From the NCBI RefSeq assembly GCF_000426645.1, contig NZ_AUFT01000007.1, forward strand, positions 62,001-126,000: DNA of 64,000 bases. The letters run 5' to 3'. This document shows positions 17,043-35,102 of the stretch, piece by piece. The position numbers were made by a program, and so were the translations under genes. This stretch comes from Nakamurella lactea DSM 19367. Its GTDB lineage: Bacteria > Actinomycetota > Actinomycetes > Mycobacteriales > Nakamurellaceae. Each line of letters opens with the position of its first letter. Position 1 is the stretch's first letter. The notes under the pieces are model-generated. The model searched no databases. It was not told the origin of the DNA and saw only the letters and a program-made list of their open reading frames with translations.

Positions 17043-17102
17043 CCTTCGGTGTCCGCCACGTGGATCATGAGCGCCACCATCGGACCCGTCCTGGAGGCAC
17101 TC

Positions 17103-18830
17103 ATGCGGTCGTTGCGTCAAGTACTCCCGTTCGTCGTGGCCGGCGGTCTCGTCCTGACTGGATGTGGTGGCGGATCGGACGCCGGCACATCGGCCTCGTC
17201 GCCGAGCGCCGCGGCCGAGGCGTCCGCCACGGGTTCCACCACCGCGGACAGCGCCACCGCGAACACCACCGGAGCATCAACGGCCGCATCGTCCGCGGGA
17301 TCCGCGGACGGGGGGTCAACCGACGCCGGATCCGTCGGGTCCGGTGGCACCGTCACCATCGGTATGCCCAACGACCCGGGCAACCTCGACCCCTCGATGA
17401 CGGTGCTGTCCGCCACCAGGTCCGTCTCACACTTCACCTACGACACCTTGGTCAATCAGATGCCGGACGGTTCCTTCGTGTCGGGGATCGCCGCCAGCTG
17501 GAAGGTGCAGCCCAGCTCCATCGAATTCACCCTGAATCCGGACGTGACCTGTTCGGACGGCAGCAAGTTCACCGCGACCGATGCCAAGAACAACATCGAG
17601 TTCGTCTCCGACCCCAAGAACAAGTCGCCGTTGCTCGGGGTGATGCTGCTGCCCGGACTGACCGCCAGTGCCGACGATGCCAAGCACACCGTCACGGTGA
17701 CGTCGCCATCGCCGAACGCCTTCCTGCTCAACGGGTTCGCCGGAGTCTTCATGGTCTGCAGGGCCGGCCTCGCCGACCACAAGAAGCTGGCCCAGCAGGC
17801 CATCGGTACCGGGCCGTTCGTGCTGTCCGAGGCGGTCGCCGACGATCACTACACCTTTACCCGCAACACCAAATACACCTGGGGGCCAGGTGGGAGACCC
17901 ATGGAGGGCGCAGGGGTTCCGGACACGGTGAACGCCAGAGTCATCACCAACACCACCACCCTGGCGAACCTGCTGATCTCCGGTGAGGTCAACATCGGCA
18001 CCGTGGTCGGCGCCGACGCGACCCGGCTGAACGAGGCCGGCCTGAAACACGCGGATGTGAAGGCGCCGCTCGGTGAGTTCTTCTTCAACCAGGACAAGGG
18101 TCATCCGGGCGCCGACCCGGCGGTCCGTGAGGCGCTGATCACCGCACTGAACCGGGACGCGCTGATGAAGGTCAGCGCCGGCGGCACCGGCAGCCCGTCC
18201 GCCGGCCTGGTCACCATCGAGCCGCGGCCGTGCGGTACCGACACGGTGACGGGCCATCTGCCGGACTACGACGTTGCGAAGGCCAAGCAGATCCTGGACG
18301 CCGCCGGCTGGGTGCCGGGTGCGGACGGGATCCGCGCCAAGGACGGCGCCAAACTCGCTCTCACCTTCATCTACCCGCAGCAGGGCGGCGACGCGCTGGC
18401 CGCGGGCGCCGAACTCCTGGCGCAGATGTGGAAGGAGTTGGGGGTCGACACCAAACTGCAGGTCATCTCGCCCACCCAGCTCAACGAGGTCGCGTTCGGG
18501 ACCGGTGCCTGGGATGCCGGCTGGATCCAGATCGGCATCAGTCTGCCCTCGCAGCTGCCGCCGTTCCTGTCCGGGCCGGTCCCGCCGAACGGCACCAACT
18601 TCGCCCATCTGGCCAACGCCACCTACGACCAGGACAGCAAGAAGGCACTGGCCACCGGTGACGTGAAAGCGGCCTGCGCGCTCTGGGACTCGGCCGAGAC
18701 GGCGCTGTTCACCGCCTTCGACGTGACGCCGATGTTCGATGCGAACACCTCTGCGTACATGAACGGGGCGACCATGAACGTCGTCGGCGGCGAGTTCGAC
18801 GCCACGTCGATCCGGCGGACCACGGGCTGA
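17103..18830 (+). CDS. Peptide/opine-type ABC transporter solute-binding lipoprotein (family 5), copy 1
   Basis: A 575-residue extracytoplasmic binding protein. The signal sequence ends in the lipobox LTGC with acylated Cys21. A Ser/Thr/Ala linker runs to about residue 78. The SBP_bac_5 domain starts with TVTIGMPNDPGNLDPS and contains DTLVNQ, GTGPFVLSE and the typical ADPAVREALITALNRDAL. By family it binds di- or oligopeptides and hands them to the OppBC-type permeases encoded downstream. The ATG at 17103 has GGAGG at 17093-17097. It is the first gene of a plus-strand operon reaching 35038, and it is a close tandem duplicate of the next gene, implying two related but distinct ligands. Confidence 0.9.
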   Translation: MRSLRQVLPFVVAGGLVLTGCGGGSDAGTSASSPSAAAEASATGSTTADSATANTTGASTAASSAGSADGGSTDAGSVGSGGTVTIGMPNDPGNLDPSMTVLSATRSVSHFTYDTLVNQMPDGSFVSGIAASWKVQPSSIEFTLNPDVTCSDGSKFTATDAKNNIEFVSDPKNKSPLLGVMLLPGLTASADDAKHTVTVTSPSPNAFLLNGFAGVFMVCRAGLADHKKLAQQAIGTGPFVLSEAVADDHYTFTRNTKYTWGPGGRPMEGAGVPDTVNARVITNTTTLANLLISGEVNIGTVVGADATRLNEAGLKHADVKAPLGEFFFNQDKGHPGADPAVREALITALNRDALMKVSAGGTGSPSAGLVTIEPRPCGTDTVTGHLPDYDVAKAKQILDAAGWVPGADGIRAKDGAKLALTFIYPQQGGDALAAGAELLAQMWKELGVDTKLQVISPTQLNEVAFGTGAWDAGWIQIGISLPSQLPPFLSGPVPPNGTNFAHLANATYDQDSKKALATGDVKAACALWDSAETALFTAFDVTPMFDANTSAYMNGATMNVVGGEFDATSIRRTTG

Positions 18831-18897
18831 GCTGACGGCCGACTTCGGCGATCCGGCGGCCGCGCCTTCGGCGCTTCCGACCAAACTGCAGGTGCAT

Positions 18898-18917
18898 CAT
18901 TGTGCAATCGAACGATG
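18898..18917. promoter_or_regulatory. Second copy of the binding-protein upstream element
   Basis: CATTGTGCAATCGAACGATG matches the element at 17023-17042 in 18 of 20 positions and continues with the same CCTT. It again ends about 60 bases before the start codon, here 18977. The flanking 146-base gap between the two binding-protein genes otherwise holds only short GC hairpins. The gene may therefore have its own regulated promoter as well as operon read-through. Confidence 0.5.
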
Positions 18918-18976
18918 CCTTTCGCGGGCCGGCCCGAGGACGATTGGCCGATCGAACATCGCCTAGGAGGCAACCC

Positions 18977-20701
18977 ATGCGGTCGTCGCATCGACTCCTT
19001 CCCGTTCTGCTGACCGCCGGCATCATCGTCACGGCCTGCGGCGGGTCGGATTCCGGCAGTTCCCCGACTGGCACTGCCAGCCAGGCGGGTGATTCCGGCG
19101 CCGGCACCACGGCGCCGGCATCCCCCGACGCCTCGGGCCCGTCCGGCTCGGACGCCGCCGAGACTTCCGGGACGGCCGAGGCCTCGGGATCGGGCGCGCC
19201 AGGTGCGGGATCCGGTGGCACGCTGACCCTCGGTCTGGCCAACGACCCGGGCAACCTCGATCCGTCGATGACGGTGCTGTCGGTGACCCGCAGCATCTCG
19301 CACCTTGCCTACGACACCCTGATCAATCAGTCCACCGACGGATCGTTCGTCTCCGGCCTGGCCACCAGCTGGAAGGTGAAGCCGGACAGCATCGAGTTCA
19401 CCCTGAACCCGGACGTCACCTGCTCCGATGGCAGCAAGCTCACCACCGAGGATGTCAAGGCCAACATCGACTTCCTCTCCGACCCGAAGAACAAGTCGCC
19501 GCTGCTCGGCGTGATGCTGCCACCGGGGCTGACGACCGAGGCCGACACCGCCAAGCACACCGTGACCGTCACCTCGCCCGCACCGAATGCGTTCCTGCTC
19601 AACGGCTTCGCCGGCGTCTTCATGGTCTGCAATGCCGGCCTCGCCGATCACAAGAAGCTGGCCCAGAAGACCATCGGGACCGGTCCGTTCGTGCTGTCCG
19701 AGGCGGTCGCCGACGATCACTACACCTACACCCGCAACGAGAAGTACGCCTGGGGGCCCGGCGGCAAGCCGATGGAGGGTCCAGGGGTCCCGGACACCGT
19801 GAACGCCAGGATCATCACCAACCCGACGACCCTGGCCAACCTGCTGATCTCCGGTGAGGTCAACGGCGGGACGGTGATCGGAGCGGACACCGCCCGGCTG
19901 GACGCAGCGGGTCTGAAGAAGGTCGACGTGAAGGCCCCGCTCGGTGAGTTCTTCTTCAACCAGGACAAGGGCCGGCCGGGCGCCGACCCGGCCGTTCGGG
20001 AGGCCTTGATCACCGCCCTGAACCGGGAGGCCCTCACCAAGGTCGGCACCGCCGGCAAGGGCGCCGCCTCCACCGGCCTGGTCACCATCGACCCCCGGCC
20101 GTGCGGCACCGACACGGTGACCGGCCACCTGCCGGACTACGACCTGGCCAAGGCCAAGCAGATCCTGGACAACGCAGGCTGGGCACCGGGTGCTGACGGC
20201 ATCCGGGCGAAGAACGGCACCCCGCTGCAGTTCACCTTCATCTACCCGCAGGCCGGTGGCGACTCGATGGCCGCGGCCGCCGAGTTGGTCGGTCAGATGT
20301 GGAAGGAGCTCGGTGTCGGCACCAAGCTGCAGAGCGTCACCTCCACCCAGCTCAATGAGGTTGCGTTCGGTACCGGCGCCTGGGATGCCGGGTGGGTCCC
20401 GGTCACCGTCAACCTGCCATCGCAGCTGGCGCCGTTCCTGTCCGGCGCGGTTCCGCCGGACGGCACCAACTTCTCGCACCTGGCCAACGCCACTTACGAC
20501 CAGGACAGCAAGAAGGCGCTGGCGACCGGCGACGTGAAGGCTGCTTGCGCGCTGTGGGATTCGGCCGAGACGGCCCTGTTCACCGCGTTCGACGTGATCC
20601 CGATGTTCGACACCAGCAACGCGATGTACCTGAACAAGGCCACGGTGAACCTGGTCGGCGGCGAGTTGGATGCGCCGTCGCTGCGGCTGACAGCGGGCTG
20701 A
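18977..20701 (+). CDS. Peptide/opine-type ABC transporter solute-binding lipoprotein (family 5), copy 2
   Basis: A 574-residue duplicate of the preceding protein with the same layout. The lipobox is VTAC with Cys21, a Gly/Ser/Ala linker follows, and the mature domain begins LTLGLANDPGNLDPS. Long blocks are identical between copies (GEFFFNQDKG, NATYDQDSKKALATGDVKAA). Differences concentrate in the linker and scattered surface positions. AGGAGG at 18965-18970 precedes the ATG. Duplication of the binding protein in front of one permease set suggests a widened substrate range. The permease gene follows after 7 bases. Confidence 0.9.
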   Translation: MRSSHRLLPVLLTAGIIVTACGGSDSGSSPTGTASQAGDSGAGTTAPASPDASGPSGSDAAETSGTAEASGSGAPGAGSGGTLTLGLANDPGNLDPSMTVLSVTRSISHLAYDTLINQSTDGSFVSGLATSWKVKPDSIEFTLNPDVTCSDGSKLTTEDVKANIDFLSDPKNKSPLLGVMLPPGLTTEADTAKHTVTVTSPAPNAFLLNGFAGVFMVCNAGLADHKKLAQKTIGTGPFVLSEAVADDHYTYTRNEKYAWGPGGKPMEGPGVPDTVNARIITNPTTLANLLISGEVNGGTVIGADTARLDAAGLKKVDVKAPLGEFFFNQDKGRPGADPAVREALITALNREALTKVGTAGKGAASTGLVTIDPRPCGTDTVTGHLPDYDLAKAKQILDNAGWAPGADGIRAKNGTPLQFTFIYPQAGGDSMAAAAELVGQMWKELGVGTKLQSVTSTQLNEVAFGTGAWDAGWVPVTVNLPSQLAPFLSGAVPPDGTNFSHLANATYDQDSKKALATGDVKAACALWDSAETALFTAFDVIPMFDTSNAMYLNKATVNLVGGELDAPSLRLTAG

Positions 20702-20708
20702 TCCGTCG

Positions 20709-21710
20709 ATGGCAACGGTCGAGACCACCATCGCTGGAGCGAGCCGACGACAATCTTTGCTGGCCAACGAATGGGTGCGGTTCGCCGTGCGTCGGTTGGG
20801 CATCCTGGTGTTGTCGATGTGGTTGCTGGTGACCTTTGCCTTCGGCATGATCCACCTGATCCCCGGCGACCCGGTGCGGGCGGCGCTCGGCTTCAACGCC
20901 GACCCGGCACTGGTCGCCGCCCGCCGCGCCGAACTCGGCCTCGACCAGGGCCTGCTCACCCAGTACTGGACCTACCTCGGCCAACTGCTGCACGGCGACC
21001 TCGGCACTTCCTTGCAGAGCAGACTGCCGGTGTCCCAGGTGATCTCGGATCGACTGCCGAACACCCTGGCGCTGGCCGGCATCACCTTCGTCGTCACCCT
21101 GCTGATCGCGGTTCCGCTCGGGGTCGGGATGGCGATCCTCACCCAGCACGGCCGCCGGCGAGGCACCGAGCTCGGCTACACCAGCGGAGCCATGGTGCTC
21201 TCGGCCATTCCCGAGTTCCTGCTGGCGGTGGTGCTGGTGTATCTGTTCGCGGTCAAGTTCCAGCTGCTGCCGATCGCCGGCCGGGCCGGGTTCAGCTCCT
21301 TCATCCTGCCGGTCGCTGCCATGACGTTGGGTTCGGCGGCGGCCATCTCCCGGATCGTCCGGGTGGAGATGCTGTCGGTGCTCGGCCAGGACTTCGTCCG
21401 GACGGCGGCGGCCAAACGGCTGCGCCCGCACCGCATCTACCTGCGGCATGCACTACCCAACGCGATGACGGCGACCCTCACCCTTTCCGGGCTGCTGCTG
21501 TCCAGTTTGGTCGCGGCCACCGTGCTGGTGGAGAACATCTTCGCCTGGCCAGGCCTCGGGCCGACCATGGTCAGCTCGATCCTGTCCAAGGACTTCCCGA
21601 TGGTCAGGGCCATCGTGCTGGTCTACGGCGGCCTGGTGTTGCTGATCAACCTGGTGGTGGACATCGTGCTGGCGATCGTCGACCCGCGCTCCGCGATCCG
21701 GAAGGCCTGA
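20709..21710 (+). CDS. Oligopeptide-type ABC transporter permease (OppB/DppB family)
   Basis: A 333-residue inner-membrane permease. The first membrane segment includes LGILVLSMWLLVTFAFGMIHLIPGDPV, where the IPGDP motif is diagnostic of OppB/DppB. The ATPase-coupling EAA loop appears as DFVRTAAAKRLRPHRIYLRHALPNAM. About six membrane segments are predicted. It pairs with the permease half of the next gene to form the translocation channel. The start at 20709 lies 7 bases after the binding-protein stop, and the stop is 4 bases before the next start, so all are translated from one message. Confidence 0.9.
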   Translation: MATVETTIAGASRRQSLLANEWVRFAVRRLGILVLSMWLLVTFAFGMIHLIPGDPVRAALGFNADPALVAARRAELGLDQGLLTQYWTYLGQLLHGDLGTSLQSRLPVSQVISDRLPNTLALAGITFVVTLLIAVPLGVGMAILTQHGRRRGTELGYTSGAMVLSAIPEFLLAVVLVYLFAVKFQLLPIAGRAGFSSFILPVAAMTLGSAAAISRIVRVEMLSVLGQDFVRTAAAKRLRPHRIYLRHALPNAMTATLTLSGLLLSSLVAATVLVENIFAWPGLGPTMVSSILSKDFPMVRAIVLVYGGLVLLINLVVDIVLAIVDPRSAIRKA

Positions 21711-21714
21711 CGCC

Positions 21715-23769
21715 GTGTCCGCAGCCAACGACCACGTCGACGCGAGTGTCGACTCCACTGCCAAGGACGCAGCGCCGTCGTCCGGAAAGCCGGTGTCCGG
21801 ACGGCGGTCCCGGCTGGCCATGCTGTTCGCCACCCCGGTAGGAATCGCGGCGATCACTGCCGACCTGCTGGTCATCCTGCTGGCCGTCTTCGGGCCGATC
21901 ATCTGGGGCACTCGGGCCGAGACCAACGACTTCGACAACCTGGATTCGGGACCGATCTCCGGCCACCCGTTCGGCACCGACAAGCTGGGCCGGGACATCT
22001 TGGCCAGAGTGCTGGTGGCCGCCCGGCTGTCGATCGGGCTGGCGTTGTCGGCGACCCTGATCGGCATCGTGGTCGGTGTGCTGATCGGCACCATGGCGAA
22101 CCTGGCCGGGCGCAGGCTGTCCCGGGTGTTCTCGACCTTCATCGGTATCGCCGTCGCCTTCCCCGGTCTGCTGCTCGCACTGTTCTTCGCGGTGATCTTC
22201 GGGGCCGGACCGACCGGCGCGGTGCTGGCCCTCGGCGCCGCCATGGCGCCAGGTTTCGCCCGGCTCACGCAGACCCTGTCTGCCTCGGTGGTCGGCCGGG
22301 ACTTCGTGTCCGCGGCAAAGGTTCTCGGCGTCAGCCGGCTCCGCGTGCTCACCCGGCACGTGGTGCCGAACATTGCTGAGCCGCTCATCGTCAACGCCAC
22401 CCTGGCCGCCGGCTCCTGCCTGCTCGCCTTCGCCGGCCTGTCGTTCCTCGGCCTCGGCGTGCAGTTGCCGTCCTACGACTGGGGCCGGATGCTGGCGGAG
22501 GGGCTGAATGCGATCTACACCAACCCGATGGCCGCGTTGGGCCCGGCGCTGGCGATCGTGTTGAGCGGCCTGGCCTTCAACCTCACCGGCGAACTCGGCG
22601 CGCAGCTCGCGGGTCGGCGGACCACTCGTGGCCGGCGCCGGCAGCGCGGTGCCGCCGACGGGTCGGACGACCAGCGCGCCCCGGGTGCCGGCGGGCTGCC
22701 GGCCGCGGCCGACACGCCGTCATCGGATGCGGTGCTGGTGGTCCGCAACCTGCGGGTGAGTGTGCGGACCGACGGCGGGACGATCGAACCCGTCCGCGGA
22801 GTCGATCTGACCGTACGAGCCGGTGAAGCGGTCGGCATCGTCGGCGAATCGGGATCGGGCAAGAGCCTCACCGCATTGTCGATCGCCGGCCTCACCCACG
22901 AGCCGTTGGAGGTGACGGCCGACGAATTGTGGTTCGACGAACTGGATCTGCGGTCGGCGATCGGCCGGCGTGGCCGGGCCCAGCTGGGCACGTCGCTGAG
23001 CCTGGTCTTCCAGGATCCGATGAGCTCGCTCAACCCGACCATGCGGGTCGGCGACCAGCTGGCCGAGGTGGCCACCGAGCATCAGCATCTCAGCTGGAAG
23101 AACGCGCGGGAGCGTGCCGTCAGCCGGCTGCGGGACGTCCGGATCGCCGCGCCGGGTCGCCGGGCCAGGCAACTGCCGCACGAGTGGTCCGGCGGGATGC
23201 GGCAACGGGCGATGATCGGCATGGGCCTGATGGGTGAGCCGAAGCTGCTGATCGCCGACGAGCCGACCACCGCCCTGGATGTCACCGTCCAGCAACAGGT
23301 TCTGGAACTCCTCGAGTCGACCAAGCAGCAATCGGGAGCGGCGTTGCTGCTGATCTCGCACGACCTGTCGGTGGTCAGCTCGGTGTGCGACCGGGTGGTG
23401 GTGATGTATGCCGGGCGGATCGTCGAGGAGCTGCCGACCGCCGACCTGGAGCACGCGCGGCATCCCTACACCAAGGCGCTGTTGCGTGCCGTCCCCTCGA
23501 TGGACACGCCTCGGGAGGAACCGTTGGCCACCATTGCCGGCCGGCCGCCGGATCCGGCGAGCCTGCCGGTCGGCTGCCCGTTCGCCCCGCGGTGCCCCCG
23601 GGCCGACGACCGCTGCCGGGTCGAGCCGGCGCTGCTGCCGGTCGCCGGTCGCCGGGCGCTCGGGCTGGCCGCCTGCCATCACCCGCACCTCGACCCGGTG
23701 TCCGAAAGCGGCGTCAGCATCGTGGACATCAGCAAGGTCGGCGCCCCCGGGATCGGGGAGACGCGATGA
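21715..23769 (+). CDS. ABC transporter fusion: DppC-type permease plus DppD-type ATPase
   Basis: A 684-residue fusion. Residues 1-300 are an OppC/DppC permease (HPFGTDKLGRDILARVLVAA; coupling loop VVGRDFVSAAKVLGVSR). A linker at about 300-340 is rich in Arg, Gly, Asp and Ala. From 340 onward is an OppD/DppD ATPase. It has Walker A GESGSGKS from residue 377, a Q-loop in SLVFQDPMSSLNP, signature LSGG replaced by WSGGMRQR, Walker B LLIADEPTTALDVT, and the oligopeptide ATPase tail CPFAPRCPRADDRC, whose cysteines may bind an Fe-S cluster. It starts with GTG. Fusion fixes one ATPase to one permease half and leaves the other ATPase to a separate gene. Confidence 0.9.
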   Translation: MSAANDHVDASVDSTAKDAAPSSGKPVSGRRSRLAMLFATPVGIAAITADLLVILLAVFGPIIWGTRAETNDFDNLDSGPISGHPFGTDKLGRDILARVLVAARLSIGLALSATLIGIVVGVLIGTMANLAGRRLSRVFSTFIGIAVAFPGLLLALFFAVIFGAGPTGAVLALGAAMAPGFARLTQTLSASVVGRDFVSAAKVLGVSRLRVLTRHVVPNIAEPLIVNATLAAGSCLLAFAGLSFLGLGVQLPSYDWGRMLAEGLNAIYTNPMAALGPALAIVLSGLAFNLTGELGAQLAGRRTTRGRRRQRGAADGSDDQRAPGAGGLPAAADTPSSDAVLVVRNLRVSVRTDGGTIEPVRGVDLTVRAGEAVGIVGESGSGKSLTALSIAGLTHEPLEVTADELWFDELDLRSAIGRRGRAQLGTSLSLVFQDPMSSLNPTMRVGDQLAEVATEHQHLSWKNARERAVSRLRDVRIAAPGRRARQLPHEWSGGMRQRAMIGMGLMGEPKLLIADEPTTALDVTVQQQVLELLESTKQQSGAALLLISHDLSVVSSVCDRVVVMYAGRIVEELPTADLEHARHPYTKALLRAVPSMDTPREEPLATIAGRPPDPASLPVGCPFAPRCPRADDRCRVEPALLPVAGRRALGLAACHHPHLDPVSESGVSIVDISKVGAPGIGETR

Positions 23770-23843
23770 GCGAGCGACAGCGAGCGAATGATGGCGCCGG
23801 TCGGGGCGTCCGCGCGAGGGACGAGCGGCAGGCACCCCGATGA
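23766..23843 (+). repeat. MIRU-like intra-operon element with a 25-codon coupling frame
   Basis: Between the permease-ATPase fusion and the next ATPase gene lies a ~74-base insert bounded by ATGA at both ends (23766-23769 and 23840-23843). Its ATG overlaps the upstream stop, it encodes 25 residues beginning MSERQRANDG, and its TGA overlaps the downstream ATG. It opens with the repetitive string GAGCGAGCGACAGCGAGCGA. These features match mycobacterial interspersed repetitive units, which insert at DTGA sites and keep neighbouring genes translationally coupled. A real peptide product is possible but not needed for that role. Confidence 0.6.
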
Positions 23844-24814
23844 GCAGCTTGGAGTTCCGTGACGTCGGTGTCACCTTCGGGTTCGGGCCGGGGGCGCTGC
23901 GCGCAGTGGACGGAGTGAACCTGCAGGTACCGGACGGCACCGTGGTCGGGCTGGTCGGCGAGTCGGGATCCGGAAAGTCGACCCTGGCCAGGGCTGCCGT
24001 CGGGCTGGCGCCGTTGACCACCGGCAGCATCACGGTGGACGGGACGCCGATCCCGCGGCGCGGCACCCGGCCGGTGCAGATGATCTTCCAGGATCCGGTG
24101 GCGGCCCTCGACCCGCGGATGACGATCGGCGCCAGCCTCGGCGAGGCGCTCGCCGTTGCCGGCGTGCGCGGACGGCGGGACCGCGGCCGGCAGATCGGCC
24201 GACTGCTGGAGCAGGTGCACCTCGACCCGGAGCTCGCGGTGCGGCCACCGGCCGCGTTGTCCGGCGGGCAGCGGCAACGGGTCGCGCTGGCCAGGGCGCT
24301 GGCCGCCGAACCCAAGGTGATGATCGCCGACGAGATCACTTCGGCGCTCGACGTTTCCGTGCAGGGAGCGGTCCTCAACCTGATCCGCGAGTTGCGCAGG
24401 GACCTCGGCCTCTCCATGCTGTTCATCTCGCACAACCTGGCCGTGGTGCGGTACGTCAGCGACCTCATTGCGGTGATGTACCTGGGCCGGATCGTCGAGA
24501 TCGCCCCCACCGAACAGCTGATCAACGATCCACAGCACCCGTACACCCGGCTGCTGCTGTCCACCGCACCACGCCTGGGCGCCACCCTTTCGGCCGGACG
24601 GCTGCCGGACGGTGTGCGGGATGTCGAGCCGGCCGACCCGCACGACCCGCCGACGGGCTGCTCGTTCCATCCCCGGTGCCCGGTCGGCCCCGCCGTCGAC
24701 CCCGGCCGTACCGACTGCGTCACCGACGATCCGTTCCTGTCGATCGACGAACGACCACACCGCGCGGCCTGTCTGTACGCCGGCCGCCACTCCCTTCGAA
24801 AGGATCCCGCGTGA
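23840..24814 (+). CDS. Oligopeptide-type ABC transporter ATP-binding protein (OppF/DppF family)
   Basis: A 324-residue ATPase. Walker A is GESGSGKSTLA near residue 40, the Q-loop lies in MIFQDPVAALDPRM, the signature is LSGGQRQRVALARALA, Walker B is VMIADEITSALDVSVQ, and the H-loop is FISHNLAVV. The C-terminal oligopeptide module contains CSFHPRCPVG. It should pair with the fused ATPase domain of the previous gene to energise uptake. Walker B carries ADEITS rather than the commoner ADEPTS. Translation is coupled to the 25-codon MIRU-like frame upstream. Its stop overlaps the GTG of the peptidase gene. Confidence 0.9.
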   Translation: MSSLEFRDVGVTFGFGPGALRAVDGVNLQVPDGTVVGLVGESGSGKSTLARAAVGLAPLTTGSITVDGTPIPRRGTRPVQMIFQDPVAALDPRMTIGASLGEALAVAGVRGRRDRGRQIGRLLEQVHLDPELAVRPPAALSGGQRQRVALARALAAEPKVMIADEITSALDVSVQGAVLNLIRELRRDLGLSMLFISHNLAVVRYVSDLIAVMYLGRIVEIAPTEQLINDPQHPYTRLLLSTAPRLGATLSAGRLPDGVRDVEPADPHDPPTGCSFHPRCPVGPAVDPGRTDCVTDDPFLSIDERPHRAACLYAGRHSLRKDPA

Positions 24815-26862: not shown

Positions 26863-28322
26863 GCACGGCCACCGACCAGGAAACCCGCGCGTCAGCCCCG
26901 TCAGCCGAAGAACCGCAACGGTTCTCGATTCCCGGCACCGCGACGACCAAACTGGACGCCGCCCATTGGCGAGCCAGGCTCGCCGAGCTCATCGACACCT
27001 ACCGGGTGCCGGGAGCCAGCCTCGGCATTCTGCGTGACGGCGCCATCACCGACGTGTCGGCGGGAGTCCTGTCCAAGGCCACCGGTGTCCCGGCAACCCC
27101 GGATTCGGTGTGGCAGATCGGTTCCATCAGCAAGGTGTGGACCGCGACCCTGATCATGCAACTGGTCGACCAGGGCAAGATCGGGCTCGACCAACCGGTG
27201 GTGGAGATCCTGCCGGACTTCAAGGTCGCCGACCCGGAGGTGACCGCCGAGGTCACCGTCCGGCATTTGCTGACCCACACCAGCGGTATCGACGGCGACG
27301 TGTTCACCGACACCGGCCGCGGTGACGACTGCGTCGGCGAGTACGTCGCGCAACTCACCGGGGTGGAACAGAACCACCCGCTCGGTGCCACCTGGTCGTA
27401 CTGCAACTCGGGCTACATCCTGCTCGGCGGCATCATCGAGAAGGTGACCGGAAAGATCTGGGACGCCGCGCTCACCGAGCAGTTGATCACCCCGCTGGGG
27501 CTGCAGGCGACGGTCACGCTGCCCGAGCAGGCCCTGCTGCACCGAGCGGCGGTCGGCCATGTCGGCGAGCCGGGTGCCGATCCGAGGCCGACCCCGCAGA
27601 TGCTGCTACCCCGTTCGGCGGGGCCGGCCGGCCTGATCACCGCCCGGACGCACGATCTGCTGTGTTTCGCCCGGATGCACCTGGCCGGCGGCGTCACCGC
27701 CGACGGCCGGCGGCTGCTGTCGGTCGACAGCGCCCGGCAGATGACCGAGCACCAGGCGGACGTGCCCGACCCGTACACCCTCGGCGGCGGATCATGGGGG
27801 CTGGGCTGGATCCGGTTCGACTGGAACGGAACGGAACTGATCGGCCACGACGGGTCCACCATCGGGCAGAACGCGTTCCTGCGGATCCTGCCAGGGCAGG
27901 ACTTCGCCGTGGCGCTGTTCACCAACGGTGGTGACAGCAAGGGGCTGTTCCAGCAGCTGTATGCCGAGATCTTCGCCGAGCTGGCCGACACCGCCATTCC
28001 GCCGAAGTTCGAGCCGCCGGCGGAACCGCCGACGGTGGACATCACGCCATGGCTCGGCCGCTACGAGCGGGCCTCGCTGCACACCGAGATCTTCCTCGAG
28101 GACGGCAAGCCGGTCCTCAAGGAGACCGCGGTCGGCCCGCTCGCCGAGCTGGATCCGGACGCGGGCAGTCACGAGCTGCCGCTGGTGGCGGTGAGCGACA
28201 ACCTGTTCGCCGCCCACGTCGCCGAGATCGACAGCTGGATGCCGGTGACCTTCTACCAGCTCGACAACGGCGCCAGATACGTGCACTACGGCGTCCGGGC
28301 CAACCCCAAGGTCGACAACTGA
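26859..28322 (+). CDS. S12-type serine hydrolase (class C beta-lactamase / D-aminopeptidase family), first copy
   Basis: A 487-residue protein with no signal peptide. The SxxK nucleophile motif is S89-I-S-K92, the YxN motif is YCN in ATWSYCNSGY, and the third-box motif is GHDGST in place of KTG. HLLTHTSGI is also present, as in most S12 hydrolases. The last ~110 residues form an extra C-terminal domain (WLGRYERASLHTE onward) of the kind found in D-aminopeptidase and related peptidases. S12 members in the cytoplasm often cleave D-amino-acid peptides, amides or esters. ATGA overlap with the S9 peptidase gene and TGATG overlap with the racemase gene tie it to the operon. Confidence 0.85.
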   Translation: MSTATDQETRASAPSAEEPQRFSIPGTATTKLDAAHWRARLAELIDTYRVPGASLGILRDGAITDVSAGVLSKATGVPATPDSVWQIGSISKVWTATLIMQLVDQGKIGLDQPVVEILPDFKVADPEVTAEVTVRHLLTHTSGIDGDVFTDTGRGDDCVGEYVAQLTGVEQNHPLGATWSYCNSGYILLGGIIEKVTGKIWDAALTEQLITPLGLQATVTLPEQALLHRAAVGHVGEPGADPRPTPQMLLPRSAGPAGLITARTHDLLCFARMHLAGGVTADGRRLLSVDSARQMTEHQADVPDPYTLGGGSWGLGWIRFDWNGTELIGHDGSTIGQNAFLRILPGQDFAVALFTNGGDSKGLFQQLYAEIFAELADTAIPPKFEPPAEPPTVDITPWLGRYERASLHTEIFLEDGKPVLKETAVGPLAELDPDAGSHELPLVAVSDNLFAAHVAEIDSWMPVTFYQLDNGARYVHYGVRANPKVDN

Positions 28323-29431
28323 TGCGCATCGACGCGGTGGAACTGCGGCAGGTCCGGATGCCGCTGAAGTCGCCCTTCCGCACCTCGTTCGGCAGTGAGT
28401 ACGACCGCAGCATCCTGCTGCTCGCCGTACACAGCGGCGGCGCCGTCGGCTGGGGCGAGTGCGTGGCGATGTCGGATCCCTTGTATTCCTCCGAATATCG
28501 CGACGCCGCGACCGACGTGCTGCTGCGCTTCCTGCTGCCGGCCCTGGCCGACCGGGAGCTGCGGGCCACCGACGTCGGGCCGCTGCTGGAGCGATTCCGC
28601 GGCCATCGGATGGCGAAGGCTGCCATCGAGGCAGCGGTACTCGACGCCGAGCTGCAGCTGCGCGGCGAATCACTGGCCGGATACCTGGGCGCGACCACCG
28701 ACCGGGTGGCGGCCGGCGTGTCGGTGGGCATCGCCGACTCGATACCGGCTCTGCTGCAGGAGGTCGGCGGATACCTGGACTCCGGCTACCGCCGGATCAA
28801 GCTGAAGATCCAGCCGGGCTGGGACGTCGAGCCGGTGGCCGCGGTGCGTCGGGAGTTCGGCGCCGAGCTGCCACTGCAGGTCGACGCGAACACCGCTTAC
28901 CGGCTCTCCGATGCCCGACAGCTGGCCCGGCTGGACGAGTTCGACCTCTTGTTGATCGAACAGCCGCTGCCCGAGGAAGACTTGTTGGGGCACGCCAGGC
29001 TGGCCGAGCAGATCAGCACCCCGGTGTGTTTGGACGAGAGCATCACCTCGGCGGAAAGTGTGGCCCAGGCGATCACCCTCGGCGCCTGCGAGGTGGTGAA
29101 CATCAAGCCGGGCCGGGTCGGCGGCTATCTGGAGGCCAGGCGGATTCACGACGTGGCCAGCGCGCACGGGTTGCCGGTGTGGTGCGGCGGGATGCTGGAG
29201 ACCGGTATCGGCCGGGCCGCCAACCTGGCGTTGGCCGCGCTGCCGGGATTCGTGTTGCCCGGCGACACCTCGGCCTCGGACCGTTACTACGCAGAGGATC
29301 TCACCGAGCCGTTCGTCCTCGAGGACGGGTACGTCCGGGTGCCGACCGGCCCGGGGATCGGAGTGGCGCCCGACCCGGACAGGTTGAGCGCGCGCACCGA
29401 GAGCGTGCAGACCTTCACCCCCGGTAGCTGA
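28322..29431 (+). CDS. Enolase-superfamily N-acyl/N-succinylamino acid racemase (MenC/NAAAR-like)
   Basis: A 369-residue enzyme of the muconate-lactonising subgroup. The active-site set is complete: K160 and K162 (KLKIQPGWD), D187 (VDANTAY), E213 (LIEQPL), D238 (CLDES) and K262 (NIKPGRVGG). KLKIxPGxD and NIKxGRVGG are signatures of the o-succinylbenzoate synthase/NAAAR branch, and residue numbers run almost in step with Amycolatopsis NAAAR. No menaquinone gene is near, whereas peptidases, an acyltransferase and a deacylase are. Racemising N-acylated (probably N-succinylated) amino acids is therefore more likely than menaquinone synthesis. Confidence 0.85.
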   Translation: MRIDAVELRQVRMPLKSPFRTSFGSEYDRSILLLAVHSGGAVGWGECVAMSDPLYSSEYRDAATDVLLRFLLPALADRELRATDVGPLLERFRGHRMAKAAIEAAVLDAELQLRGESLAGYLGATTDRVAAGVSVGIADSIPALLQEVGGYLDSGYRRIKLKIQPGWDVEPVAAVRREFGAELPLQVDANTAYRLSDARQLARLDEFDLLLIEQPLPEEDLLGHARLAEQISTPVCLDESITSAESVAQAITLGACEVVNIKPGRVGGYLEARRIHDVASAHGLPVWCGGMLETGIGRAANLALAALPGFVLPGDTSASDRYYAEDLTEPFVLEDGYVRVPTGPGIGVAPDPDRLSARTESVQTFTPGS

Positions 29432-29442
29432 CGGGCGACGGG

Positions 29443-31245
29443 ATGGCCAGCGGAGCGCACGTGCGGACCACCGCCACGACAGGTGACAGGGCCACGCTGG
29501 CCGGCTTGCTGGCGCATCTCGGTGGCACCCTGCTGTCGCTGGCCGCCGGTGTCGCGGACGACCGTCCGGTCGAGGCGGTGGTGATCCACGACCCGCTGGA
29601 CGAGGAGATCGTGCCGCCGCACGCCGTCGTGCTCGCGGTGGGCGTCAGCGGGTCGGACGGAATCGTCGGCCTGCTGGAATCGCTGTCCGGGCTGCAGGTT
29701 TCGGCTGTCGTGGTGCGGGCACCGGCGGAGGCCGGGCCGGTGGTGCAGCGGGCCGTCGGTGAAGCCGGGGCGGTCCTGCTGGAGCTGACCCACGGGGCCA
29801 CCTGGACGCAGATCACCAGCCTGGTGCGGACCGTCATCGGGGAGGGCCAGGTCAGCTGGGTCGGGGCCGACGCCGGCCTCCCGGACGGAGCTCCCAACGG
29901 CGACCTGTTCGCGGTCGCCAACGCGGTGAGCGCGTTGATCGATGCACCGGTGACGATCGAGGACCGGGCGTCGCGGGTACTGGCCTTCTCCGGCGGGCAG
30001 GACGCCGCGGACGCGTCCCGGATCGAAACGGTGCTCGGCCGTCAGGTGCCGGCAGCCTACCGGGACAAACTCGAGCGGATCGGGGTGTTCCGCCGGATGT
30101 TCCGGGAGGGCGGGCCGGTGTTCGTCGATCACCGGGACCTGGGTGAGCCGTCGATCGCCAAGTCCCGCACCGCCATTGCGATCCGGGCCGGCGACGAAAT
30201 CCTCGGATCGATGTGGGCAGCGGTCGACGCGGAGCTGACGTCGCAGCGACGGGATGCCTTCATCGACGCCGCGCACGTGGTGGCTCTGCAGTTGTTGCGA
30301 CAGCGGGCCGGGGCGGACGTCGAGCGCCGGGTGCGCTCGGATCTGGTGGCCACGGTGCTCCGCGGCGGCTCCGAGGCGGTGTCCGCCGCCGCCCGACTGG
30401 GGCTCGGCGCCGGCGCGACCGTGGTGTTGGCCGCCACCCCCCTGGACGAGGCCGAACTGGGCCCACAGGCAGACCTGGAGGTCGGCAGGCAGCAGATCGC
30501 CGATGCGCTGAGCCTGCACCTGTCGGCGGTGCATCCACGTTCGGCGAGCGCGCTGATCGGCGGGATCGCCTACGGCGTCCTGCCCAGTGACAGCGGTGAC
30601 CGGGCCACCTCGACCGCCCGGCGGATCGCCGAGAACTTCGTGGCGCGCACCGGGTCCCGGCTCCGGGTCGCGGTCGGCATCGGCCGGGTCGCGCACGATC
30701 TTCGGGACCTGGAACGCTCCCGGGCCGACGCCGACCGGGCGCTGCGGGTGCTCCGTCGGCCGGGTGCGACGATCTCGGTCGCCGGCATCGACGAGGTATT
30801 CGCCGAGGCCTTGCTGATCGAGCTCAGCGATCGGGCCGAGGCCGAGGGCTACCGGGGTTGGGGCTCATTGGCCGCGCTGGCCGACTACGACGGCAACCAC
30901 AACGCCGAACTGGTGCCGACGCTGTGGTCCTATCTCGAAGAGCTCGGCGACGTCACGGCAGCATCGGAACGGGTACGGGTGCATCCCAACACCTTTCGCT
31001 ACCGACTGCGTCGGATCGTGCAGATCGGCGGCCTGGACCTGGCCGACCCGCGGGTCCGGTTCGCCGCGATGCTGCAACTGCGGCTGGTCGGTTTCGACGG
31101 ACGGGCGCCGTCGTCGGCCCCCACGTTGTCGGCCGGAGGGTCGGCGGCGGGAAGGTCGGCGGCGGGAACCTCGCCGCCGATAGGCCAACCGCACCAAGTA
31201 GCGGGTGTCGATTCTGCTGCGCCGACGAAGGACCGACCGAGGTGA
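29443..31245 (+). CDS. PucR-family transcriptional regulator
   Basis: A 600-residue regulator encoded inside the operon. The N-terminal ~130 residues are the PucR ligand/sensing domain (VVIHDPLDEE, VLAVGVSGSDGIVGLLESL). The middle has a GAF-like segment and a degenerate GGDEF-like (CdaR) region. The C-terminus has the PucR helix-turn-helix (LEELGDVTAASERVRVHPNT, then FRYRLRRI). A low-complexity Ser/Ala/Gly tail follows, encoded by an imperfect 15-base tandem (GGTCGGCGGCGGGAA) near 31138-31170. PucR proteins activate catabolic operons in response to the substrate, and it probably controls the 17-35 kb operon. A GTG at 29461 with GGAG at 29452-29455 is a good alternative start. Confidence 0.85.
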   Translation: MASGAHVRTTATTGDRATLAGLLAHLGGTLLSLAAGVADDRPVEAVVIHDPLDEEIVPPHAVVLAVGVSGSDGIVGLLESLSGLQVSAVVVRAPAEAGPVVQRAVGEAGAVLLELTHGATWTQITSLVRTVIGEGQVSWVGADAGLPDGAPNGDLFAVANAVSALIDAPVTIEDRASRVLAFSGGQDAADASRIETVLGRQVPAAYRDKLERIGVFRRMFREGGPVFVDHRDLGEPSIAKSRTAIAIRAGDEILGSMWAAVDAELTSQRRDAFIDAAHVVALQLLRQRAGADVERRVRSDLVATVLRGGSEAVSAAARLGLGAGATVVLAATPLDEAELGPQADLEVGRQQIADALSLHLSAVHPRSASALIGGIAYGVLPSDSGDRATSTARRIAENFVARTGSRLRVAVGIGRVAHDLRDLERSRADADRALRVLRRPGATISVAGIDEVFAEALLIELSDRAEAEGYRGWGSLAALADYDGNHNAELVPTLWSYLEELGDVTAASERVRVHPNTFRYRLRRIVQIGGLDLADPRVRFAAMLQLRLVGFDGRAPSSAPTLSAGGSAAGRSAAGTSPPIGQPHQVAGVDSAAPTKDRPR

Positions 31246-32135
31246 GGCACCATTCTGACAAGGTGACTCAGGTATCTCGAACCCTGCCGACGCCGCAGCG
31301 GCACGCCGACCAGGTGGCACAGGCCGCCGCGCAGCGTGCCGGGGTGACCGTCGACGAGGTGGTGAGCCCTGGTCGGCTCAAGGACGTCGAGCAGTTGTTC
31401 CGGACCGTCTGGGAGACCGACCGGGACCGGCCGCCGATCAGCGCCGATGTGCTGCGGGCGCTGGTCCACTCCGGTTCGTATGTCGCCGCGGCCTACACCG
31501 CTGACGGTCGGCTCGCCGCGGCCGGCGTCGGGTTCCTGGCCACCGACGTGCGGTCGGCGGAGGTGGGCGGGACCGAGTCACCAGTGGCCTCGATGCACTC
31601 GCATATCGCCGCCGTGGCACCGGGAACGGAGCGACACGGGATCGGCAGCGCGCTCAAGCTGCACCAACGCGGGTGGGCGATCCGGCGCGGACTCCGCTCG
31701 ATCACCTGGACCTTCGACCCGCTGGTCCGGCGCAACGCCGGGTTCAACGCCCATCTGGGCGCCGAGTTCGTGCGGTACTACCCGGATTTCTACGGCGAGA
31801 TGGCGGACGGCCGGAACGCCGGGCAGGGCAGCGACCGGCTGCTCGCCCGGTGGGACCTGCAGCTGCCGGCGGTTCCCAGGGTCGCCGTAGAGCCGGTGGG
31901 TGATCGCCAGCGGCTGCTGGAACCCGACGGCGACGGCCGCCCGGTGGCCGGGACGATCGAGGGCGACCGGGCGTGGGTGGCGACACCGGCGAACATCGAG
32001 CAGCTCCGCCGGGTCGACCCCGACCTGGCCGGCCGGTGGCGCATCGCCGTCCGTGATGCGATGGAACCACTGCAGTCCGGCTGGCGGATCGACGGATTCA
32101 CCGCCGGCGGCAGCTATCTGCTGGTGCGCGAATAA
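31242..32135 (+). CDS. GNAT-superfamily acyltransferase (COG3375 type)
   Basis: A 297-residue protein of the predicted GNAT group COG3375. Recognisable blocks are ADGRLAAAGVGFLAT, SHIAAVAPGTERHGIGSALK (the acyl-CoA pyrophosphate loop), the R-RNAGFNAHLGAEFVRYYPDFYG core and ARWDLQLP. The GTG at 31242 overlaps the PucR stop (GTGA) and has AAGGA nine bases upstream. GNAT succinyltransferases are known partners of N-succinylamino acid racemase in a D- to L-amino acid route. This gene lies one regulator away from the racemase, so N-succinylation of D-amino acids is a sensible prediction. Confidence 0.75.
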   Translation: MRHHSDKVTQVSRTLPTPQRHADQVAQAAAQRAGVTVDEVVSPGRLKDVEQLFRTVWETDRDRPPISADVLRALVHSGSYVAAAYTADGRLAAAGVGFLATDVRSAEVGGTESPVASMHSHIAAVAPGTERHGIGSALKLHQRGWAIRRGLRSITWTFDPLVRRNAGFNAHLGAEFVRYYPDFYGEMADGRNAGQGSDRLLARWDLQLPAVPRVAVEPVGDRQRLLEPDGDGRPVAGTIEGDRAWVATPANIEQLRRVDPDLAGRWRIAVRDAMEPLQSGWRIDGFTAGGSYLLVRE

Positions 32136-32162
32136 GCCCAACCACGAACAACGAGGAGAGAC

Positions 32163-33563
32163 ATGAACGTCACCGAGCGACTGCAGGCGATCGTCACCGA
32201 ACAGGCCGAACTGGCCGGGGTCCCCGGCGTGTCCGTCGGAGTGTGGCTCGACGGCGACGCCTCCTACGCCTATCACGGGGTGACCAGCATCGAGAACCCG
32301 CTGCCGGTCGACGAGAACACGTTGTTCCAGTTCGGCTCCACCGGCAAGACGTTCACCGGCACGGCAATCATGCGCCTGGTGCAGGACGGCCGGATCGATC
32401 TCGACGCGCCGGTCCGGCAGTATCTGCCGGACTTCCGGGTGTCCGACGAGGCGGCCTCGGCGGCGGTCACGGTGCTACAACTGCTCAACCACACCGCCGG
32501 CTGGTCGGGGGACCGGATGGGCGATGCGTCGGACAACGGCCCGGAATCCATCGAGAGGTTCGTCGCCGCGATGGCCGGCCTCGAGCAGGAGTTCGCGCCC
32601 GGGACGGCGATGTCCTACAACAACGCCTCGCTGTCGGTGGCCGGCCGGATCATCGAAGTGGTGACCGGACAACGGTTCGAGCAGGCGATCCAGGAGCTGG
32701 TGCTGACGCCGCTCGGCCTCGAGCACACCTTCACCTCGGGCGACGATGCGATGACCCGCCGGTTCGCGGTCGGGCACGTGCCGGCGGGCGAGGACGCGCT
32801 CGCCGTTGCCCGGCCCTGGGGCCTACCGCGGTCCGGCGCTCCGGCCGGCGGGCTCACGGCCAACGCCGGTGACCTGGTGTCCTGGATCAGGTTCCATCTC
32901 GGTGACGGCACCGCCGCCGACGGCAGCCGGGTGCTCGAGGAAGCGACCCTGAAGCGGATGCAGCAGCCGACCGTCGACATCGAAGGATCCGCCCTCGGTG
33001 ATCACATCGGCATCTCCTGGATGTTGGCCGACGTCGACGGGGTGCGCCTGGTGAGCCACGGCGGCAACACCATCGGGCAGGAGTCGGCGTTCGTGATGGT
33101 GCCCGAGCGCAGCTTCGGCATCGCGACGCTGACCAACGCGTCCGGGCCCGGTGGGAGCTTCAACACCGCGGTGGTGAAGGCCGCGCTGGCCGAATTTGCC
33201 GGCGTGCAAGAGGTCGAGCCGGAGCCCACCGACCGCACGGACGCGGAACTGAGCGGCTACGCCGGGCAGTACGAGACAGTGGCGATGGCGATCGACATCT
33301 CCGTTGACGGACATCGCCTGTCGGCGGATATGAAGGCGAAACCGGCCTTCCTCGAGGCCCTCGGCGCCAGCGAAGAGGACTTCGCGCAACCGCCGGTGGC
33401 GCTCGGCATGGTCGGCGCGGACGGCGACCGGTTCATCGCCGTCGACGGTTCCAGCAAGGGCATGAAGGGCGTGTTCTTCCGCTCGCCGGACGGCGCCGTC
33501 ACCGGCGCGCACATCGGTGGACGGTTCGCGGCCAGGATCAACGTGCCGGCCGGCCGCGGGTGA
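32163..33563 (+). CDS. S12-type serine hydrolase, second copy
   Basis: A 466-residue relative of the hydrolase at 26859, also without a signal peptide. Motifs are S59-T-G-K62 in FGSTGKTF, SYNNASLSV (the YxN box), HTAGWSGD and HGGNT as the third box. A C-terminal lipocalin-like segment (LSGYAGQYETVAMAIDISVD onward) follows the hydrolase domain. GAGGAGAG lies just upstream of the ATG. Its SxxK box and C-terminal segment differ from those of the first copy, so the two probably differ in substrate. D-aminopeptidase, amidase or esterase activity are the plausible roles. GTGA overlap couples it to the amidohydrolase. Confidence 0.83.
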   Translation: MNVTERLQAIVTEQAELAGVPGVSVGVWLDGDASYAYHGVTSIENPLPVDENTLFQFGSTGKTFTGTAIMRLVQDGRIDLDAPVRQYLPDFRVSDEAASAAVTVLQLLNHTAGWSGDRMGDASDNGPESIERFVAAMAGLEQEFAPGTAMSYNNASLSVAGRIIEVVTGQRFEQAIQELVLTPLGLEHTFTSGDDAMTRRFAVGHVPAGEDALAVARPWGLPRSGAPAGGLTANAGDLVSWIRFHLGDGTAADGSRVLEEATLKRMQQPTVDIEGSALGDHIGISWMLADVDGVRLVSHGGNTIGQESAFVMVPERSFGIATLTNASGPGGSFNTAVVKAALAEFAGVQEVEPEPTDRTDAELSGYAGQYETVAMAIDISVDGHRLSADMKAKPAFLEALGASEEDFAQPPVALGMVGADGDRFIAVDGSSKGMKGVFFRSPDGAVTGAHIGGRFAARINVPAGRG

Positions 33564-35038
33564 GCTCGTCATTGCTGATCCGCGGTGGTCGGGTGATCGA
33601 CCCCGGTGACGGCACCGATGCGGTGCGCGACGTGCTGGTCCGGGACGGGTCGATTGCCGAGGTGTCCGCGGCGATCGATGCCGCGGATGCGGAGGTTCTT
33701 GATGCCGCCGGTCTAGTCGTCGGGCCGGGCTTCGTTGACCTGCACAGCCACGTGCATTCGATCGCCGGGCAACGCCTGCAGGCTTTCGACGGGGTGACGA
33801 CGGCGCTCGATCTGGAGGCCGGGCTGATGCCGATCGGGCTGGCCTACTCCGCCGCGGCCGCCGAGGGCAGGCCGCTCAACTACGGGTTCTCGGCCTCCTG
33901 GGCGGCGGCCAGGGCGCAGGTGCTGATCGGCGTGCAGCCGGACGCCACCATCGACGGCACCCTCGGGTTGCTCGGCGACGTCGGCTGGCAGCGGTCGTCG
34001 ACGGCGGCCGAGCTGACCGGCTGGCTGGCCCTGCTCGAACGCGAGATCGCCGACGGCGCACTGGGTGTCGGGGTGCTGTTGGGCTACGCACCGCAGACCG
34101 ATCCGGCGGAGTACCTCGCGGTCGCGCGGCTGGCGGCCGCTGCCGGTGCGCCCACCTTCACCCATGTCCGCGAGCTGGTCGAGGCCGACCCCGGCACTCC
34201 CGTTGACGGATCCGACGAGGTGCTGCGGGCGGCCGCGGAGACCGGCGCGGCAATGCATCACTGTCATGTCAACTCCACCTCACGCCGACACATCGACCGG
34301 GTGCTGTCGGCCATCGAACGCTCGCGGCTGGCCGGCGCCAGGGTCACCGTCGAGACCTATCCGTACGGAGCCGGATCGACCGCCGTCGGCGCCGCGTTCC
34401 TGGCGCCGGAACGGTTGACGCACTGGGGAATCGAGCCGTCCAGCATGGTGGTCGTGGAGTCCGGTGAGCGGATCGGGTCGGTGGATCGGCTGCGGCAGTT
34501 GCGATCCGACCGACCGGCCACCGAGGTGCTGGTGGAGTTCCTCGACGAGAACAACCCGGTCGACGCCGCGCTGCTGCAGTCGTCGCTGGCCTTCCCCGAC
34601 GCCGTGGTGGCCAGCGACGCAATGCCGGTGCTGTCGCCCGGTCTGGTGGCCGACCCGCGGCGTTGGCCGCTGCCGGCCGATGGTGCCACCCACCCGCGGA
34701 CGGCCGGCACCTTCTGCCGGTCGTTGCGGACGATGGTGCGGGACAGCAATCAATGGAGCTGGCTGGAAGCGTTCCGGCGCTGCTCGTACCTGCCGTCCAG
34801 GGTGCTGGACGAGATCGCACCGACGGCGAAGGCCAAGGGGCACCTGGGGATCGGCGCCGACGCCGACCTGGTGCTGCTCGACCCGGATGTCGTCGGCGAC
34901 CGCGCCACCTACACCGCACCAACCCGGCCGTCGGACGGCATCCGGCACTTGCTGGTCAATGGCACCTCGGTCATCGCCGACGGGCAGTTGCTGGTCGATG
35001 CCTACCCGGGCCGTCCGCTGCGCGGCGAGCCGCGCTGA
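33560..35038 (+). CDS. N-acyl-D-amino acid deacylase-like amidohydrolase
   Basis: A 492-residue metal-dependent amidohydrolase. The N-terminal beta-sandwich leads to H62-S-H64 in FVDLHSHVHS. Later His residues (MHHCHVNS) and the catalytic Asp in VVASDAMPV complete the metal centre. ATHPRTAGTF is a hallmark of D-aminoacylases. Where the classic enzymes place a metal-bridging Cys (GNCG), this protein has E86 in LDLEAG, as in other branches of the family. It is the last gene of the operon and would release free amino acids from N-acyl-D-amino acids or related compounds. Lys carboxylation was not evident. Confidence 0.82.
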   Translation: MSSSLLIRGGRVIDPGDGTDAVRDVLVRDGSIAEVSAAIDAADAEVLDAAGLVVGPGFVDLHSHVHSIAGQRLQAFDGVTTALDLEAGLMPIGLAYSAAAAEGRPLNYGFSASWAAARAQVLIGVQPDATIDGTLGLLGDVGWQRSSTAAELTGWLALLEREIADGALGVGVLLGYAPQTDPAEYLAVARLAAAAGAPTFTHVRELVEADPGTPVDGSDEVLRAAAETGAAMHHCHVNSTSRRHIDRVLSAIERSRLAGARVTVETYPYGAGSTAVGAAFLAPERLTHWGIEPSSMVVVESGERIGSVDRLRQLRSDRPATEVLVEFLDENNPVDAALLQSSLAFPDAVVASDAMPVLSPGLVADPRRWPLPADGATHPRTAGTFCRSLRTMVRDSNQWSWLEAFRRCSYLPSRVLDEIAPTAKAKGHLGIGADADLVLLDPDVVGDRATYTAPTRPSDGIRHLLVNGTSVIADGQLLVDAYPGRPLRGEPR

Positions 35039-35043
35039 ACCTG

Positions 35044-35089: not shown

Positions 35090-35102
35090 GGTGTTGTTCT
35101 CG

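Follow-up and report, generated by a model that had tools for sequence, protein, structure and literature searches.

An operon of importer, hydrolase and racemase genes in Nakamurella lactea, with related gene strings in other actinobacteria and probably devoted to D-amino-acid-containing peptides

We analyzed a stretch of 64,000 nucleotides from Nakamurella lactea DSM 19367 (GCF_000426645.1, NZ_AUFT01000007.1:62,001-126,000, forward strand), referred to here as the window. It covers positions 62001-126000 of contig C5, in a genome of 5.82 Mb in 27 contigs. Between positions 17103 and 35038, twelve co-directional genes, all on the plus strand, encode a peptide importer, three hydrolases of the S9 and S12 families, an N-succinylamino acid racemase or N-acylamino acid racemase (NSAR/NAAAR, hereafter NSAR), a PucR-type regulator, a GNAT acyltransferase, and an amidohydrolase, which we call AHS. 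The coordinates agree with the compact arrangement described in the initial annotation of this DNA (gaps of 4-146 bases or overlaps): six junctions have gaps of 146, 7, 4, 70, 11, and 27 bases, and the remaining five are overlaps of 1-4 bases. The operon is flanked upstream by an alpha/beta hydrolase gene on the opposite strand and downstream by a convergent gene of the major facilitator superfamily. Its genes are, in order:

17103..18830, plus strand: peptide-type substrate-binding lipoprotein 1 (SBP_bac_5; PF00496, 182.8 bits; lipobox-like LTGC in the translation)
18977..20701, plus strand: peptide-type substrate-binding lipoprotein 2 (SBP_bac_5; PF00496, 192.5 bits)
20709..21710, plus strand: DppB-like permease (PF00528 and PF19300)
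21715..23769, plus strand: DppC-like permease fused to a DppD-like ATPase (PF00528, PF00005, and PF08352)
23840..24814, plus strand: DppF-like ATPase (PF00005 and PF08352)
24811..26862, plus strand: S9 peptidase, acyl-peptide-hydrolase-like (PF00326, 140.8 bits; GYSYGG motif)
26859..28322, plus strand: S12 serine hydrolase a (PF00144, 221.2 bits; SxxK at 89, YxN at 181, HxG at 330)
28322..29431, plus strand: predicted NSAR/NAAAR (515 bits to 1sja; seven key residues invariant)
29443..31245, plus strand: PucR-type regulator (PF13556 and PF17853)
31242..32135, plus strand: GNAT N-acyltransferase carrying an extra segment at its C-terminus (alignment-level Acetyltransf_1 matches and a fold model)
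32163..33563, plus strand: S12 serine hydrolase b (PF00144, 239.4 bits; SxxK at 59, YxN at 152, HGG at 299)
33560..35038, plus strand: AHS, a D-aminoacylase-like amidohydrolase with Glu-Ala replacing the Asn-Cys metal-ligand motif (NF006560, 634.7 bits against a cut-off of 340)

The Pfam domains of these proteins comprise two SBP_bac_5, BPD_transp_1, a permease and ATPase fusion with oligo_HPY, a second ATPase, Peptidase_S9, two Beta-lactamase (S12) domains, MR_MLE of the enolase superfamily, PucR HTH_30, and Amidohydro_3. They agree with the families assigned initially across the operon, with the GNAT protein recovered through an alignment and a fold model. The oligopeptide transporter is complete, as had been noted, but does not have separate DppC and DppD genes: BPD_transp_1, ABC_tran, and oligo_HPY lie in a single frame of 684 amino acids. 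An operon on a Streptomyces plasmid likewise carries an annotated permease/ATP-binding protein at the position of the fusion. Taken as a single protein, the GNAT product gave only a sub-threshold Pfam match (16.2 bits against a cut-off of 20.7). Of the 30 proteins in its alignment, 24 matched Acetyltransf_1 at E<=0.1, including the window’s own. The model built from this 30-sequence alignment had a mean predicted local distance difference test score (pLDDT) of 90.7 and a predicted TM-score (pTM) of 0.86. With this model, Foldseek retrieved solved GNAT acetyltransferases, including phosphinothricin N-acetyltransferases, which points to a GNAT fold; the TM-score over the query stayed below 0.5, the model being longer than the matched structures. 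The most likely start of the gene is the GTG at 31242.

For the S9 protein, the closest solved structure is an S9 family peptidase, followed by acyl-peptide hydrolases, and the active-site pattern GxSxGG is kept. Inspection of its translation by eye revealed no signal peptide, and the enzyme is therefore probably cytosolic; the S12 hydrolase a translation, inspected in the same way, also showed none. Alkaline D-peptidase, DD-carboxypeptidases, and D-amino acid amidase are among the solved relatives of hydrolase a. Since these relatives also include esterases and beta-lactamases, D-specificity is a possibility only. In a Streptomyces relative, the S9 and S12 domains are fused in one protein. 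A consensus scan of positions 16800-35200 detected seven terminator-like sites (shuffle mean 4.3) but nothing resembling a promoter. The two terminator-like sites on the plus strand fall within the DppB and NSAR genes, and none is intergenic on the operon’s plus strand. This pattern would be compatible with a single transcript, without proving one.

The racemase is the enzyme on which the interpretation turns. Among proteins of solved structure, those it matches best are five N-acylamino acid racemase / o-succinylbenzoate synthase (OSBS) sequences (1sja, 4a6g, and others; 510-515 bits), followed by a second group (2fkp, 1r0m, and others) at 317-321 bits, with L-Ala-D/L-Glu epimerases reaching at most 119 bits. 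Lys160, Lys162, Asp188, Glu213, Asp238, Lys262, and Arg265 are invariant across 12 aligned proteins. We take these to represent the catalytic lysines (KxK and a later Lys), three acidic metal ligands, and, as Arg265, a second-shell arginine near the last lysine that presumably favors racemization. Both the matches and the conserved residues support the earlier prediction of an NAAAR/NSAR-type racemase. PMC8142540 ties 4a6g to the N-acyl amino acid racemase of Amycolatopsis and lists kinetic measurements on NSARs from Amycolatopsis and Deinococcus.

We also asked whether the enzyme might be only an OSBS. The genome encodes a separate MenC on contig C4 (407 bits against a curated cut-off of 288), as do all 16 same-genus relatives searched, and the NSAR gene should therefore be dispensable for menaquinone synthesis. 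OSBS as the main role was set aside on this ground. Of 30 listed plasmid records for the racemase, 21 carry the label menC (o-succinylbenzoate synthase; 13 of these from Deinococcus radiodurans) and 9 are unnamed or unannotated. The racemase also passes TIGR01928, despite the separate MenC in the window’s genome.

Three more NSAR-like genes are present in this genome, at 66, 56, and 47% identity. Four of its five GNAT-family genes neighbor the NSAR genes (the fifth is at C6:371411), so that all four NSAR loci have a nearby GNAT, the one on contig C2 being a partial match. The three other NSAR genes (contigs C6, C9, and C2; loci L123, L124, L125, and L156) are each also accompanied, within about 11 kb, by genes for a D-aminoacylase-like enzyme and for a Beta-lactamase2 protein. 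The C6 and C9 loci carry peptide transporter genes, and C9 also an M20 gene.

To assess conservation, we examined 80 named loci, the best 80 of 579 stretches encoding an NSAR relative as ranked by NSAR similarity. They carry 35 genus labels, some for unclassified metagenome-assembled genomes, and include related genomes that are not independent. Neighbors were counted as strong matches within 11 kb of NSAR on either strand, with an identity threshold per family. GNAT was found in 72 loci, an M20-family hydrolase in 48, PucR in 39, S12 in 33, DppF in 31, the DppCD fusion in 29, DppB in 27, substrate-binding proteins and S9 in 23 each, and AHS in 7; M19 dipeptidase matches occurred in 13. Restricting the counts to the same strand, in the 58 loci whose flanks reached 9.5 kb or more upstream and 4 kb or more downstream, gave 51 for GNAT, 33 for M20, and 29 for PucR. 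A one-strand core of DppB, DppCD, DppF, S12, GNAT, NSAR, and PucR was present in 18 of the 80 loci, under 11 genus labels. Overall, a related gene string recurs across actinobacterial genera, and the linkage of importer, S9, S12, GNAT, NSAR, and PucR genes is repeated in related genomes. The pairing of GNAT and racemase, already remarked on in the initial annotation, is its most frequent element.

The position of the GNAT gene varies. It follows PucR in the window, whereas in the 88 other loci checked no GNAT on the strand of NSAR lay farther than 500 bases downstream of it. In both Deinococcus records, GNAT is downstream of NSAR. The annotated set on the Streptomyces plasmid comprises S12, a substrate-binding protein, a permease, a permease/ATPase, an ATPase, an S9-S12 fusion, M20, GNAT, the racemase (as menC), and a regulator. 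In another phylum, a plasmid of Deinococcus ficus carries a row of NSAR, GNAT, two permeases, a substrate-binding protein, S12, Amidohydro_3, an M19 dipeptidase, a further S12, and a regulator; the gene order differs, and there are no ATPase genes among them. In Deinococcus radiodurans MP1 (L162, 13183-14060), the substrate-binding protein gene between NSAR and GNAT is annotated as two short overlapping pieces and is perhaps decayed. The initial annotation knew of no described system with the full gene set. Genomic relatives prove to be common, but a search of open-licence papers, judged by titles and abstract openings, found no description of the operon or its route.

The M20 hydrolase bears on the final step of the proposed route. 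D-aminoacylases hydrolyze N-acyl-D-amino acids, and a D-to-L route requires hydrolysis of N-acyl-L-amino acids; the stereochemistry of its family therefore makes the operon’s amidohydrolase a misfit for the last step. An M20 hydrolase, located near GNAT and NSAR in relatives and, by our uncounted impression, usually directly upstream of GNAT, fits the role of L-deacylase. Pfam detected none among the twelve operon proteins. With the M20 protein of a Microbacterium operon as query, the sole close relative in the window’s genome was at C3:481259 (59% identity), the other two matches reaching 30-31%. This gene is an open frame of 382 amino acids, closest to carboxypeptidase G2 and also matching succinyl-diaminopimelate desuccinylases. 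Operon M20s of other genera resemble it more (up to 63% identity) than do the five compared from its own genus (52-58%).

The final gene of the operon, AHS, departs from the D-aminoacylases at its metal site. By alignment only, His62, His64, His202, His236, and Asp353 correspond to the HxH motif, two further histidines, and the catalytic aspartate of subtype V, and Tyr176, the YPY motif, and Arg380 of an HPR motif correspond to the substrate-binding tyrosine and arginine. In place of the Asn-Cys of D-aminoacylases stands Glu86-Ala87, invariant in all seven aligned AHS proteins, so that the subtype V cysteine ligand is replaced by alanine with an adjacent glutamate; Asn238 occupies the position of the carboxylate-binding lysine. 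AHS thus shares the amidohydrolase superfamily and these His, Asp, Tyr, and Arg positions with AfDam (1M7J) and BbDam (3GIP; PMC12017989), and differs from them in Glu-Ala for Asn-Cys and Asn for the substrate-binding Lys. That paper characterizes subtype V by Cys/His/His plus Asp and another subtype by Glu/His/His, and reports a D-aminoacylase relative that can act on a sugar acid, so the substrate of AHS should not be assumed from likeness. The cysteine (GNCG) is kept by the D-aminoacylase-like paralogues near the genome’s three other NSAR genes, and the amidohydrolases of Deinococcus ficus and locus L122 have neither the cysteine nor the first histidine of HxH. An AlphaFold model of AHS (7 sequences; mean pLDDT 55.3) was not used.

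We next surveyed 150 related genomes, including the window’s own, counting AHS above its family cut-off (which excluded G046) and NSAR at E<=1e-60. AHS was found in 26 genomes and NSAR in 40, with both in 24 of the 26 (Fisher P 4e-15, relatedness ignored). The two genes lie within 15 kb of each other in 17 of the 26, own genome included. In seven others, AHS is on another contig (five genomes) or 29.5 kb or 2.6 Mb from NSAR, and two (G003 and G138) have no NSAR at the threshold. These results support the view that the AHS gene belongs with NSAR in related genomes. Across a phylum-wide sample of 396 genomes, the linkage was not extended: AHS at E<=1e-100 occurred in 8 and NSAR at E<=1e-80 in 68, four genomes had both (the own genome, G185, G306, and G425), and only the own genome had both on one contig. 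All 16 other AHS-linked related genomes also had M20 and GNAT matches in the fetched stretch (in L177 with M20 on the opposite strand). AHS therefore normally adds to the L-hydrolase without replacing it, and we set aside the idea that it is a simple substitute for M20. Given the N-acyl-D stereochemistry of its family, its altered metal site, and the M20 genes of relatives, the initial proposal that the amidohydrolase performs the final deacylation was not borne out.

Taken together, the gene content, the sequence and fold families, the catalytic residues, and the conserved linkage observed here lead us to favor, with moderate confidence, a catabolic unit for D-amino-acid-containing peptides. 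In such a unit, oligopeptides would enter by way of both lipoproteins and the Dpp-type ABC transporter, and the S9 and S12 hydrolases would cleave them in the cytosol. GNAT would then N-acylate the freed D-amino acids, and NSAR would racemize the N-acyl-D-amino acids. The M20 hydrolase, acting in trans from contig C3, would deacylate the L-form and so pull the reaction toward the L-amino acid. The PucR protein would probably sense substrate or product, and the eleven junctions would be bridged by presumed co-transcription. AHS would probably be a side entrance, hydrolyzing N-acylated D-amino acids that either reach the cell from its surroundings or are set free from N-acylated peptides. The sequence of import, cleavage, acylation, racemization, and deacylation first suggested for the locus is thus largely supported, with the exception of the enzyme assigned to deacylation. 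More tentatively, and with considerably less assurance, the locus may represent a widespread D-peptide utilization unit (importer, S9/S12, and an acylate-racemize-deacylate module) with a related set in Deinococcus, joined here by a new type of AHS whose glutamate metal ligand would enable the use of N-acylated D-peptides such as lipopeptides.

Several observations weigh against this interpretation. The full one-strand core is absent in 62 of the 80 loci, in some through a contig end, and 8 loci have no GNAT over the threshold within 11 kb and 32 no M20; moreover, the 80 loci were selected by NSAR similarity, and kinship makes them non-independent. The M20 gene of the window’s genome is unlinked, and the D-to-L route is therefore incomplete in cis. 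Thus, although the promoter and terminator scan fits the early suggestion that everything is made from one transcript, one step of the route lies outside the operon. The solved relatives of binding protein 1 are mostly nickel-type and other binding proteins, and the binding-protein sequences allow no readout of peptide specificity. The S12 family is functionally mixed, and hydrolase a scores 48.1 bits on the D-aminopeptidase model NF009622, below the cut-off of 443. OSBS activity can also occur in NSAR enzymes, and TIGR01928 scores the window’s racemase at 313.5, above the OSBS cut-off of 200.65. In five genomes of the same genus (G014, G002, G004, G008, and G013; loci L136 and L139-L142), NSAR-GNAT pairs stand near ResB and UbiA cluster genes. 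M20 accompanies the pair in three of the five, L139 also has menaquinone-type AMP-binding and enoyl-CoA hydratase genes nearby, and NSAR shares its contig with the true MenC, at a distance of about 4-21 kb.

Among the alternatives, we consider it unlikely, though the least so, that the operon serves general peptide or N-acyl-amide scavenging, with L-peptides as the main food and the racemase as a minor clean-up enzyme. The S9, S12, and Dpp-type transporter families are all broad, and only NSAR and the D-acylase-like protein suggest the D-configuration. Such a role sits poorly, however, with the recurrence of the NSAR, GNAT, and S12 combination, accompanied in subsets by M19 and D-acylase-like genes and found also in Deinococcus ficus.

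Specificity for peptidoglycan stem peptides, like that of the Bacillus dpp-ykf genes, appears rather improbable. Binding protein 1 is weakly similar to murein peptide-binding proteins, among others, but the racemase is NSAR-like and not epimerase-like, and Pfam gave no LD-carboxypeptidase, NlpC/P60, or M55 D-aminopeptidase domain for any of the twelve proteins. The Bacillus subtilis operon for murein peptides is similar in combining a peptide ABC importer and peptidases with a racemase or epimerase of the enolase superfamily; it differs in having a dipeptide epimerase in place of NSAR, is not known to include a GNAT, and has different peptidases. The traits of a Bacillus-type murein operon, namely a dipeptide epimerase and peptidoglycan-specific peptidases, were not found here. 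The resemblance extends to the superfamily, as L-Ala-D/L-Glu epimerases are enolase-superfamily enzymes of the murein peptide pathway and YkfB of Bacillus subtilis is one described example (PMC5808125).

Least probable of all, in our view, is flow from L to D, in which NSAR would racemize N-acyl-L-amino acids and the D-aminoacylase-like protein would free D-amino acids as in the industrial process: D-amino acids are known to be made industrially by coupling NSAR to a D-acylase (PMC7431475) and the window has a D-acylase-like gene with no M20 in cis, but the importer and peptidases suggest uptake and breakdown, an M20 relative exists in the window’s genome, and AHS was accompanied by M20 in every other linked genome.

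A catabolic unit for D-containing peptides would have its nearest known parallel in Geobacillus kaustophilus, in which an NSAR, a GNAT succinyltransferase, and an L-deacylase reportedly form a route from D- to L-amino acids. The racemase family and a nearby GNAT are the same, and so is M20 in the 48 named loci that have it within 11 kb. In contrast, a peptide importer, S9/S12 hydrolases, PucR, and a D-acylase-like gene are joined to the set here, and M20 is unlinked in the window’s genome. If the interpretation is true, many actinobacteria own a dedicated route for D-containing peptides of cell-wall and natural-product origin, one that annotation partly hides, with the racemase often labeled menC. 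The operon offers a concrete gene set for testing bacterial D-amino acid recycling. It would also be a natural counterpart to the industrial process in which NSAR is coupled to D- or L-acylases (PMC7431475); these cascades share the racemase and stereospecific N-acyl-amino acid hydrolases, and differ in being man-made mixtures without importer, GNAT, or regulator.

Elsewhere in the window, positions 5846-7924 encode a fusion of an S12 domain and an InhA-like MAM domain. Downstream of the operon are genes for a beta-N-acetylglucosaminidase, in which an NAGidase domain is combined with F5/8 type C domains (40445-43897), and for an alpha-L-fucosidase (47130-49487), and positions 49378-51189 encode a Stealth-type protein.

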